DNA from: Acidobacteriota bacterium
GTDB taxonomy: Bacteria; Acidobacteriota; Blastocatellia; UBA7656
Assembly: GCA_016201275.1 (NCBI GenBank)
Contig: JACQDB010000053.1
Span: forward strand, 1-32,391
DNA: 32,391 nt
Direction of reading: 5' to 3'
Shown here: in pieces, positions 22,257 to 27,402 of the stretch
How the letters are laid out: every line of letters begins with the position of its first letter
Position numbering within the stretch: the stretch's first letter is position 1
Made by a program: the position numbers and the translations under genes
Notes under the pieces: model-generated
Database searches by the model: none
The model's input: the letters and a program-made list of their open reading frames with translations, nothing else
What the model was told of the DNA's origin: nothing

Positions 22257-22446
22257 TAGCCCACGAAGTGGGCGCAAGCATAAAGCCACGGGCGTTAGCC
22301 CGTGGACGCAAGCATAAAGCCACGGGCGTTAGTCCGTGGACGCAAGCATAAAGCCACGGGCGTTAGCCCGTGGACGCAAGCATAAAGCCACGGGCGTTAG
22401 TCCGTGGGCGAGCGCCCATTCGTATCGTTAGCCCACAAAGTGGGTG
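22257..22446. repeat. four 34-bp hairpin repeats with related flanks
   Basis: Units start at 22273, 22307, 22341 and 22375 and end at 22408. Each contains GCAAGCATAAAG followed by the hairpin CCACGGGCGTTAGCCCGTGG. Units 1 and 3 have GCCCG, units 2 and 4 GTCCG, so the array is a duplicated 68-bp dimer; the T keeps a G-U pair in RNA. Shorter hairpins CCCACGAAGTGGG (left) and CCCACAAAGTGGG (right) flank it. There are no variable spacers, so this is not CRISPR. It lies 5' of the sugar-oxidation operon. Confidence 0.9.
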
Positions 22447-24265: not shown

Positions 24266-25057
24266 TTATTTGGGTTTTTTCGGGTTTTTGTGGCGAATCT
24301 TTTTAGGCTTCAAGTTCACCACGGGCGTACCCGGTTGCAAAAATTTATGCACTTCGCTCGGTTTCAATTCGCGGAATTGTCCGACCGGAAGTTTATCGTC
24401 GGTCAGATGGCCTATGCGTATGCGCTTTAATTTGGTGACCGAGTGGCCGGTGTAATCGAACATCTTGCGAATCTGCTGATTCTTGCCCTGCACCAGAGTG
24501 ACTTCGTACCAGCAGTTGCCGCCTTTGGCGGTGCGCTCCAACAATTTGATTTCCGCCGGAGCCGTGCGTTTATTCTCCAGGTGTATGCCTTCGCGCAGGC
24601 GGGCGATTTGTTCAGGATTCGGCTCGCCTTTGACCTTAACGTGATAGACCTTTTTCACCTGCCCGGCTTTGGTCAGCCGCTGCGTCAACTCGCCATCGTT
24701 GGTCAGAATGATTAAGCCTTCGGTGTTGTAATCGAGGCGACCAACGGGATGCAGCCCACGCCGCGACGAAGGCGGCAAGAGGTGCGCGACAATCAATCGC
24801 CCCTTGGGATCGGCAACCGTCGAGACATAGCCTTTCGGTTTATTGACCAGAAAATATTTTTTGGCCCTCTCTTCGTGATGCGGATTGAGGAGCTTGCCGC
24901 GCACTTTGATGTGATCTTTATCGAGGTCGGCTTTGCTGCCCAGTTCGGTGACGAGTTTGCCATTGACCGTCACCTCGCCGTGAAGAATCATCTCTTCAGC
25001 AGCGCGACGCGAAGCCATCCCGGTTGCTGCTATGATTTTTTGAATACGTTCTTGCAT
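24266..25057 (-). CDS. rluB: 23S rRNA pseudouridine synthase, RluB/RsuA family
   Basis: 263 residues. The N-terminal S4 RNA-binding domain (QERIQKIIAATGMASRRAAEEMI) is followed by the catalytic domain with GRLDYNTEGLIILTNDG, where Asp109 is the nucleophile, and NQQIRKMFDYTGHSVTKLKRIRIG. The C-terminus is a basic tail (KPKKIRHKNPKKPK) for RNA binding. It follows scpB on the same strand, the common bacterial scpA-scpB-rluB order, but here the gap is about 240 bp and filled with repeats. The ATG is preceded not by a Shine-Dalgarno but by a heptanucleotide array starting 4 bp upstream. RsuA or RluE specificity cannot be excluded; context favours RluB. Confidence 0.9.
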   Translation of the reverse strand: MQERIQKIIAATGMASRRAAEEMILHGEVTVNGKLVTELGSKADLDKDHIKVRGKLLNPHHEERAKKYFLVNKPKGYVSTVADPKGRLIVAHLLPPSSRRGLHPVGRLDYNTEGLIILTNDGELTQRLTKAGQVKKVYHVKVKGEPNPEQIARLREGIHLENKRTAPAEIKLLERTAKGGNCWYEVTLVQGKNQQIRKMFDYTGHSVTKLKRIRIGHLTDDKLPVGQFRELKPSEVHKFLQPGTPVVNLKPKKIRHKNPKKPK

Positions 25058-25061
25058 AAAA

Positions 25062-25117
25062 TTATTTGTTACTGGTTATTGGTTATTTGTTACTGGTTAT
25101 TGGTTACTTGTTGCTTT
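25062..25117. repeat. heptanucleotide tandem array abutting rluB
   Basis: Eight consecutive 7-bp units, of the form TTAYTKG: TTATTTG, TTACTGG, TTATTGG, TTATTTG, TTACTGG, TTATTGG, TTACTTG, then a degenerate TTGCTTT. The array occupies the ribosome-binding region of rluB. It resembles the short tandem repeats of cyanobacteria in style. Confidence 0.88.
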
Positions 25118-25135
25118 CGGCGTTCAAGTAACAAG

Positions 25136-25267
25136 CTCGACTGTTGTGTTTTGGCGATTACCGCGCCGATGTTTGAATTTTGTTATCTGCATATTGTGGT
25201 CTGATGATTCAGAGACACAATATGCAGCCGTCTTACCTCTCAAGTTATCCAAAACACAACAGTCGAG
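25136..25267. mobile_element. 132-bp palindromic element with 19-bp perfect inverted ends
   Basis: CTCGACTGTTGTGTTTTGG at 25136-25154 is the exact inverse of 25249-25267. Inside lies a second stem, CTGCATATTGTG with CACAATATGCAG, extended by TCTGA/TCAGA around a short loop. Flanks TAACAAG and TAACCAG could be a target duplication with one mismatch, but they also belong to the heptad arrays. There is no coding capacity; it is MITE-like and lies between scpB and rluB. Confidence 0.75.
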
Positions 25268-25307
25268 TAACCAGTAACAAATAACCAATAACCAGTAACT
25301 AATTGGT
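25266..25307. repeat. inverted heptanucleotide array overlapping the scpB 3' end
   Basis: Six units of 7 bp: AGTAACC, AGTAACA, AATAACC, AATAACC, AGTAACT, AATTGGT. They are the reverse complement of the array at 25062-25117, so the two arrays form the outer arms of a large palindrome around the 132-bp element. The scpB stop codon (25299-25301) and its last codons (VTN) lie inside this array. Confidence 0.85.
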
Positions 25308-25832
25308 TACTAAATCCTCGAAATCTTCGAGGCTCGGAAGTTCGGACACATCATTGAGTCCGAATTGTATCAGAAACTCTTTTGAAGTGCCGTATAACAT
25401 TGGGCGACCGACTACAGGCTTGTGACCGCGTGGCACAATCAAGCGGCGGTCTAATAAAGTTTTGATTGCCGAGGTCGAAGACTTGCCGCGAATCTCCAAG
25501 ATTTCGGGAATCGTGATCGGTTGTTTGTAAGCGATGACGGCAAGAGTTTCCAAGGCTGCCAGCGACAAACGCGCCGTCGGTTGCGCCTTCAAATAGCGCC
25601 GCACATATTCGTTTAATTCGGGGCGCGTGGAAATGCGATAGCCGCCCGCCAAGAGACGCATCTCAAGACCGCTGTTGCGAGCGTTGAACTCTTGCGTCAA
25701 TTCATCGCAAGCGGTTTTTATATCATCAATATTTTCACCCTCAAGCAGAGAAGTGATTTGCTTAATCGGTATCGGTTCTTCCGAAACGAAGACCAAGGCT
25801 TCAATAATTGGTTTTAGTTCTTCTATGGTCAT
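25299..25832 (-). CDS. scpB: segregation and condensation protein B
   Basis: 177 residues with the two winged-helix domains of ScpB: PIIEALVFVSEEPIPIKQI ... GYRISTRPEL and LSLAALETLAVIAYKQPITIPEILEIRG ... RLIVPRGHKPVVGRPMLYGTSKEFLIQFGL. As a dimer it bridges ScpA in the SMC-ScpAB condensin, which acts in chromosome segregation. It ends in EDFEDLVTN, whose last codons come from the heptad array. No clear ribosome site precedes ATG 25832. It is separated from scpA by an unrelated gene, which is unusual. Confidence 0.93.
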   Translation of the reverse strand: MTIEELKPIIEALVFVSEEPIPIKQITSLLEGENIDDIKTACDELTQEFNARNSGLEMRLLAGGYRISTRPELNEYVRRYLKAQPTARLSLAALETLAVIAYKQPITIPEILEIRGKSSTSAIKTLLDRRLIVPRGHKPVVGRPMLYGTSKEFLIQFGLNDVSELPSLEDFEDLVTN

Positions 25833-27350: not shown

Positions 27351-27360
27351 TTAGTATCAC

Positions 27361-27402
27361 AATCTGTAATCCGCAATCCGCATTCGGCAATCCGCAATCG
27401 TT
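27361..27402. repeat. heptanucleotide tandem array between trpS and scpA
   Basis: Six 7-bp units: AATCTGT, AATCCGC, AATCCGC, ATTCGGC, AATCCGC, AATCGTT. The sequence differs from the TAACC arrays near rluB but has the same period and the same kind of location, an intergenic gap of this gene run. It ends at the trpS stop codon. Confidence 0.8.

Follow-up and report, generated by a model that had tools for sequence, protein, structure and literature searches.

How does a long palindrome come to lie between two genes, and what keeps its two halves matched? This question is raised by the segment between scpB and rluB in an Acidobacteriota genome of the class Blastocatellia (assembly GCA_016201275.1, here G000), where tandem heptanucleotides face their inverse copies and a 132-bp element with inverted ends lies between them. 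The segment belongs to the window, by which we mean the whole stretch of 32,391 nucleotides that was analysed. In the parts of the two studies drawn on here, heptanucleotide repeats are described, for the majority of repeat-rich bacterial genomes, as the most abundant class among the longer simple repeats (PMC4679880), and their role is said to be still to be elucidated (Rehm et al. 2015, PMC4692102).

Results

Structure of the scpB-rluB segment

A nested palindrome of heptads, a 132-bp element and inverse heptads had been predicted between the two genes, and this arrangement was found, as were the perfect 19-bp inverted ends and the inner 12-bp stem of the element at the positions given in Table 1. 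The left array, taken before to hold eight heptads, is indeed a tandem TTAYTKG array, consisting of seven exact units plus one degenerate one. Its exact units read a b c a b c d, where a is TTATTTG, b is TTACTGG, c is TTATTGG and d is TTACTTG. On the right side the inverse array is real, and the proposed count of six is reduced to four exact contiguous units, with one further inverse unit, CAAGTAA (25125-25131), to the left of the 132-bp element.

Table 1. Features of the scpB-rluB segment; positions are those of the window.
Feature	Position	Strand	Remarks
Left arm, 7 exact TTAYTKG heptads	25062..25110	+	
Loop of heptad palindrome, TTGCTTTCGGCGTT	25111..25124		
Right arm, inner piece CAAGTAA CAAG	25125..25135	-	Split from remainder by 132-bp element
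MITE-like element, 132 bp	25136..25267		
Perfect 19-bp inverted ends of 132-bp element	25136-25154 / 25249-25267		
Inner 12-bp stem of 132-bp element	25187-25198 / 25216-25227		
Putative 7-bp target duplication, copy 1, TAACAAG	25129-25135		Last 7 nt of inner right-arm piece
Putative 7-bp target duplication, copy 2, TAACCAG	25268..25274		6/7 match to TAACAAG
Right arm, outer part, 4 exact CMARTAA heptads	25271..25298	-	Outer edge touches scpB stop
scpB, stop TAG 25299-25301	25299..25832	-	SMC_ScpB, 1.3e-50
rluB-type pseudouridine synthase gene	24266..25057	-	PseudoU_synth_2 and S4 domain matches

Read along the minus strand, the scpB stop is followed by the outer right arm, the 132-bp element, the remaining heptad palindrome and the start of rluB (25057), which lies 4 nt from the outer edge of the left array. 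The right array had been thought to encode the end of scpB, which it does not; its first heptad starts at the base adjoining the stop codon. We also found no reason to regard the left array as a replacement of the ribosome site of rluB, as the 20-nt spacer of the relative G002 is likewise without an obvious Shine-Dalgarno sequence (by eye). The composite has two layers, namely a heptad palindrome of the form TTAYTKG(n)-loop-CMARTAA(n) and a later insertion of the 132-bp element into its right arm. In the mRNA the spacer would be a very stable stem, in line with the folding proposed earlier for the minus-strand RNA: for positions 25055-25305 the predicted fold has -112.6 kcal/mol and a z of -15.4, and none of 200 shuffles was as stable.

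When the scpB-rluB junctions were compared, the spacer measured 20 nt in G002, -1 nt in G003 and 33 nt in G004, and the segment is not conserved intergenic sequence. Since none of these three usable relatives has the heptad palindrome, it probably arose in this lineage. The loop in the window resembles that of another locus, L186, by eye, at an alignment score of 18 that is no higher than for shuffled cores. Three other repeats of the window were noted. A single-arm array of GATTGCG-type heptads fills the trpS-scpA spacer on the minus strand (27351-27401), where no inverted partner was seen, and tandem repeats whose period is not a heptad lie at 22268-22407 (34 bp, 4.1 copies) and 116-240 (42 bp, 3 copies).

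The 132-bp element

A search of the genome for further copies had been advised, and both the heptad arrays and the element turned out to recur elsewhere. BLAST with the element core identified five further copies of approximately full length in the same genome (contigs C22, C162, C122, C154 and C107), at 76-86% identity, and two partial ones (C80 and C160), which together with the copy in the window (C98) makes eight. Among the six copies of approximately full length, a 7-bp flanking duplication is perfect at C22 (ACCTTTA) and C154 (TAGGTAA) and matches in six of seven positions at C98 and C162; none was seen at C122 and C107. The element thus shares with MITEs its terminal inverted repeats, the lack of room for a transposase gene, several dispersed copies and, at some of these, a target site duplication. 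Similar 18-nt ends were found 0.12-0.24 kb from the contig ends of C136, C95, C122 and C104, as if a multicopy element broke the assembly there, and also inside C133. Beside these ends no transposase was recognised, and the ORF adjoining the end in C133 has no Pfam match.

The copy on C162 sits, like that of the window, within a heptad palindrome, and these are the two loci at which arrays adjoin the element. It had been suggested that the arrays are part of the mobile unit or grew by slippage at its edges. That they are part of a MITE is ruled out by the catalogue of heptad loci and element copies. Thirty of the 32 heptad loci that we examined (28 of them inverted pairs) are without the element, six of the eight element copies, partial ones included, are without TTAYTKG heptads in the 70 nt on each side, and where the two occur together, one arm is in both cases interrupted by the element. 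We therefore give next to no credence to either form of this suggestion.

The TTAYTKG family in the genome

In 6.84 Mb, three consecutive TTAYTKG units gave 97+112 matches, compared with 6+12 when the pattern was reversed; chance does not account for the arrays. We examined 32 loci, 31 chosen ones and the window; the genome total may be larger. Thirty of them are inverted pairs with TTAYTKG reading inward, the remaining two (L052 and L061) being without a clear second arm. According to an automatic ORF call, 27 of the 32 lie between co-directional ORFs, a count that takes in L063 after an 89-aa ORF on the array was set aside and leaves out L049, L052, L059, L068 and L186, among which L059 corresponds to a gspE-pilT tandem in relatives. 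At eight loci (the window, L051, L053, L054, L056, L059, L068 and L179) the outermost heptad starts on the base after the stop codon. The occupied junctions include what we take to be, by recognising the sequences, rpoB-rpoC, dnaK-dnaJ, mraY-murD, gap-pgk, dppB-dppC, pyrB-pyrC and coxS-coxL.

The two arms of a locus have a unit order in common. Over the 30 pairs the summed alignment score was 166. Exchanging right arms between loci gave 117 +/- 9.7, and shuffling units within arms gave 130 +/- 6.3; in neither case did any of 2000 trials reach 166. No significance was attained when the arms were matched position by position from the outer or the inner end, where 127 and 182 of 2000 permutations came up to the observed fraction, and units have therefore been gained or lost in the arms.

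The cores between the arms measure 12-527 nt and are mostly unrelated. We considered a shared loop as a mobile core and rejected it, because shuffled cores scored up to 24 and only three comparisons (31, 30 and 25) exceeded this value, the 527-nt core of L049 taking part in two of the three. Three loci, L065, L184 and L187, do have their loop in common, together with portions of the outer flanks, and the common loop suggests that certain copies were moved whole. Two further peculiarities concern the interior of the palindromes. At L181, L183 and L062 second heptads (TTCCTCG, TTCCTTG and TCACAAA) have expanded inside the TTAYTKG palindrome, in one arm or the loop only, and at the coxS-coxL junction (L054, 1065-1454) a core of 415 nt between the two arms holds most of a 129-aa ORF.

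Heptad arrays and their polarity in relatives

Three exact TTAYTGG units occurred in the genome itself only, that is in one of the 58 genomes of a Blastocatellia class sample, which includes no second member of its genus, and in one of the 109 of an Acidobacteriota sample that overlaps it. The period of seven is far more widespread than this word. In 580 kb of G002 we counted 41 period-7 arrays, none of periods 4-6 and four each of periods 8 and 9; 280 kb of G000 not selected for arrays held 14 of period 7 and four of period 8. Markov shuffles gave no period-7 arrays. Between 43 and 80 kb each of G003, G004, G009 and G008, regions which partly include junctions queried earlier, contained 7, 13, 17 and 10 such arrays, respectively, and 80 kb of G017 contained none, with 11 arrays of period 12.

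Neighbouring arrays are usually inverted to each other. For G002, 15 inverted pairs were listed (13 without double listings) and no direct pair. G000 gave 24 inverted listings, many of them segment combinations of the same arrays, and five direct ones, which are also segments of the arrays L219 and L235. In G002 inverted pairs occupy 15 of 315 tandem junctions, 3 of 53 convergent and 0 of 54 divergent ones; the corresponding figures for G000 are 6 of 172, 0 of 32 and 0 of 34.

For polarity we used 66 merged inverted pairs from the sampled regions and the chosen loci, 30 of which are TTAYTKG pairs, there split as two clusters. In families with several members the polarity was kept in 57 of 59 pairs, and the strand reading inward has more G than C in 57 of the 66 pairs, fewer in 3 and equal numbers in 6. 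Counted by cluster, 15 are G-rich inward, one is C-rich and two are equal (14 : 1 : 2 after the TTAYTKG clusters are merged). Tandem junctions were G-rich inward in 20 cases, equal in two and C-rich in two. All five convergent junctions were G-rich inward, and there is no downstream start codon at such junctions; start-codon needs therefore do not explain the polarity, as judged from these five cases.

Heptads were also seen in putatively viral sequence. Over 12-13 kb, the putative viral contigs L395 and L398 hold 28 and 32 heptad arrays, for which 11 and 12 inverted pairs were listed, AATCAGT/ACTGATT and AGTGATC among them. Three units of the heptad are present in 37 such contigs, only 4 of which showed any inverted heptad pair in the stretch examined.

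Orthologous junctions

Ten junctions with a TTAYTKG palindrome in G000 were followed into relatives, nine by a joined protein query and the tenth by the scpB search. This yielded 31 junctions, of which 28 were used after setting aside L242 and L073 (genes too far apart) and L074 (no rluB). As controls served nine conserved junctions without arrays, 23 of the 26 tried being used (L291 and L279 were not syntenic and L280 was too far apart). Period-7 arrays were present at 11 of 28 orthologous junctions and at none of 23 controls (Fisher p 0.0005), and inverted pairs at 9 of 28 and none of 23 (p 0.0025), in a comparison where the targets were chosen for recognisable genes and the control spacers in relatives are often short. 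The contrast was weaker when the targets were compared with other junctions of the same loci by a cruder junction call: pairs were found at 6 of 26 versus 1 of 30 (p 0.04) and arrays at 10 of 26 versus 6 of 30.

The heptad itself differs from genus to genus. At rpoB-rpoC it is GATGTTA in G003, GGGTTCA in G004 and a CAGTCGGTA-like mixture in G002. The gspE-pilT junction has TTTTCAG in G003 and no heptads in G004, and in G002 (L245) its left arm, GGATTGC, and its right arm, AATCCTG, belong to different families; the word is perhaps being replaced there. The pyrB-pyrC junction of G002 (L263) holds two units of the G000 type, CCAATAA CCAGTA, just before the start codon and below the array threshold, and because of these the TTAYTKG family may be older than the genus.

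The rpoB-rpoC junction was surveyed more widely. It was hit in 39 of 43 genomes, and 30 spacers were read. Eight have a period-7 array, seven of these as an inverted pair, and 22 of the 30 fold with a z below -2 (median -3.5) even though their sequences are largely unrelated. In comparison, a z below -2 was reached by 6 of 56 array-less tandem spacers of 45-160 nt in G000 and by 17 of 112 in G002, several of the latter 17 being worn heptads by eye. Array-less convergent spacers reached it in 4 of 13 (G000) and 15 of 30 cases (G002), as terminators would. Given that so many rpoB-rpoC spacers fold well and few array-less tandem spacers do, we conclude that a hairpin is either attracted to this junction or needed there, whether or not it consists of heptads. 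The hairpins are built in various ways. In six genomes (L323-L328, from G028, G039, G024, G036, G032 and G012) the rpoB-rpoC stems are, by eye, composed of AGTCTGGAA-like units some 9 nt long rather than 7, and in genus g16 (L311-L313, L317 and L318) they are without heptads and show what by eye appear to be compensatory changes in the stem.

Folding of the two strands

If the fold of the transcript is selected, G-U pairs are tolerated on the sense strand only, and the sense RNA should fold better than the antisense RNA. At 27 TTAYTKG loci the sense strand was better in 8 and the antisense strand in 19 (p 0.06), and at 47 tandem junctions with heptads, from several genomes, there was no sense advantage (23 to 24, p 0.77). 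For the 30 rpoB-rpoC spacers the count was 18 to 12 in favour of sense (p 0.05). Selection on the sense RNA is hence not supported at the heptad loci and slightly supported at rpoB-rpoC. Because the sense RNA of the heptad loci folds no better than the antisense RNA, the data favour a process acting on both DNA strands as the maker of the heptad palindromes. Intrinsic terminators were considered as well. As the palindromes sit inside core operons, at rpoB-rpoC, dnaK-dnaJ, mraY-murD, gap-pgk and pyrB-pyrC, it is unlikely that they terminate transcription efficiently.

Discussion

Overall, the unit order shared by the two arms and the lack of a sense-RNA advantage point to an origin at the DNA level. 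The best explanation that we can offer, at a confidence a little short of even, is that the intergenic heptad palindromes of the whole genome result from slippage in steps of 7 nt together with copying from arm to arm. The arms would grow by strand slippage, and fold-back template switching, as in the correction of quasipalindromes, would copy each arm anew from its partner; in this proposal the arms stay complementary, although the word changes, because each is the template of the other. One heptad would also spread between loci of the same genome. The palindromes would persist wherever a long hairpin behind a stop codon is harmless or useful, which in the same proposal is the reason why operon junctions are occupied again in other genera. 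Homogenisation of inverted-repeat arms by template switching is described in the sections of earlier work that we rely on (PMC8604942, PMC7202029). Slippage and template switching alone leave unexplained why one heptad is present at 32 loci and absent from relatives, and why the polarity is fixed.

A mobile unit is an alternative. The pair of inverted arrays could be a REPIN-like element that a Y1 transposase of the IS200/RAYT type transfers as a single-stranded DNA hairpin, the loop being free to vary. The fixed polarity, the inverted pairing, the variable spacer, the extragenic site and the genome-specific families resemble REPINs as these are presented in the consulted part of Bertels and Rainey (2011, PMC3116915), and the loop common to L065, L184 and L187 counts for such a unit, but the unrelatedness of most loops counts against it. 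Y1_Tnp matches number 8 in G000 and 5-9 in the heptad-rich genomes G002, G003, G004, G008 and G009, compared with 1-3 in G017, G021 and G025 and none in G029, a group of four of which only G017 was scanned for arrays; the number may merely track genome size, and Y1_Tnp is present in 15 of 16 genomes. Around 20 Y1 loci, several of them cut by contig ends, a period-7 array lay within 250 nt at only two (L354 and L357), one of which has unmatched heptads on its two sides, and no TTAYTKG array was found within that distance. Two of the ORFs concerned, L352 (G000, C80; 310 aa) and L365 (G004, C4; 279 aa), have two Y1_Tnp matches each in one frame. A mobile unit alone also leaves unexplained why different families occupy one orthologous junction, and we consider this account unlikely. 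Selection could instead act on an intercistronic RNA hairpin, be it an mRNA stabiliser, an RNase site or a translation spacer, for which heptads would be the cheapest way of building a long stem and of building it again. This agrees with the well-folding, unrelated rpoB-rpoC spacers, with the apparently compensatory stem changes seen by eye in the g16 genomes G017, G021, G025, G037 and G040, and with a hairpin whose position is conserved across genera as its sequence changes. Against it speak the missing sense-strand advantage of the heptad palindromes and the short, stemless spacers at orthologous junctions (gspE-pilT in G004, pyrB-pyrC in G003 and scpB-rluB in three relatives), so that we judge it quite improbable.

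The polarity could also be the product of telomerase-like synthesis. Both 3' ends of a break would be extended with heptads by a reverse transcriptase that carries a short RNA template, and would then be joined. Such a model would account for the fixed polarity and the G-rich 3' strand, and the geometry fits, as both inward 3' strands bear the same, mostly G-rich heptad. According to the excerpted description of DRT10, this system makes telomerase-like tandem-repeat cDNA, with a repeat of 9 nt in one case (PMC12632851). No RVT_1 match was found in G000, which is 98.7% complete, or in the heptad-rich G008, and we therefore hold the model to be very improbable; a shared unit order of the arms would not be expected from independent additions either. 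Returning to copying between arms, one may go a step further and regard certain junctions, most clearly rpoB-rpoC, as standing palindrome slots which are rewritten in each genus with its own G-rich-inward word by a directed DNA process that carries one word to dozens of slots. We regard this as possible, if rather doubtful.

From Xanthomonas, heptameric repeats between genes are already known, among them inverted pairs at conserved junctions (PMC4692102). There, GGGAATC heptads are intergenic, most of them have aligned ORFs on the two sides and lie near a neighbouring ORF, they are under-represented between divergent ORFs, and 70 (Xcc) and 75 (Xac) convergent two-site cases form inverted repeats. 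With its 7-bp unit, its convergent pairs and the same junctions occupied in related species, this is the closest known case; by our reading its G strand also reads inward in the pairs, which is the polarity found here. In contrast to the single G-quadruplex-capable heptad reported from Xanthomonas, there are many families here, and TTAYTKG has at most GG and no GGG tract. The present case also differs in that the heptad varies between genera at orthologous junctions and in that 30 of the 32 TTAYTKG loci are paired. Direct repeats of TAACTGA have been described from Beggiatoaceae, Cyanobacteria and Bacteroidetes (MacGregor 2015, PMC4679880). They resemble the present heptads in being a similar 7-mer that is mostly intergenic and adjoins start codons, but in the sections cited the Beggiatoaceae genome has 169 direct-repeat sets and one inverted repeat, whereas inverted pairs are usual here.

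REPINs are alike in their inverted doublets with a spacer, their extragenic hairpins and their genome-specific families, and differ, judging from the cited part of the text, in their REP core (PMC3116915); here the arms are tandem heptads of variable number, the arrays are not palindromic by themselves as a REP palindrome would be, and a transposase gene with the same repeat on its flanks was not seen at the 20 Y1 loci. The satellites of Bacillus keep a constant repeat length with a sequence that differs between species, as is the case here. Their units measure 20-21 or 52 nt, and in the passages cited short sequences and their reverse occur within the unit and not as pairs of arrays (Subirana and Messeguer 2021, PMC8161180).

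The literature searched, outside which lie most subscription journals including the cyanobacterial STRR papers, contains the studies on Xanthomonas and Beggiatoa; among the papers listed, none dealt with the replacement of heptads at orthologous junctions, and none with arrays of this kind in Acidobacteriota. As far as this search goes, an acidobacterial case with many families is new. The same holds for orthologous junctions that exchange their heptad, for a polarity rule that spans families and for the match in unit order between arms.

A heptad shared within a genome, words that differ between genera and junctions that recur make it possible to separate three questions, namely why the period is seven, why the arrays form inverted pairs and why the position is kept. 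The polarity rule is a sharp constraint on any mechanism, and the same tests can be applied to any genome with heptad arrays. If junctions such as rpoB-rpoC were indeed standing slots, this would amount to a genome-wide concerted evolution of hairpins without a conserved sequence, in which the arms are kept matched at dozens of slots.
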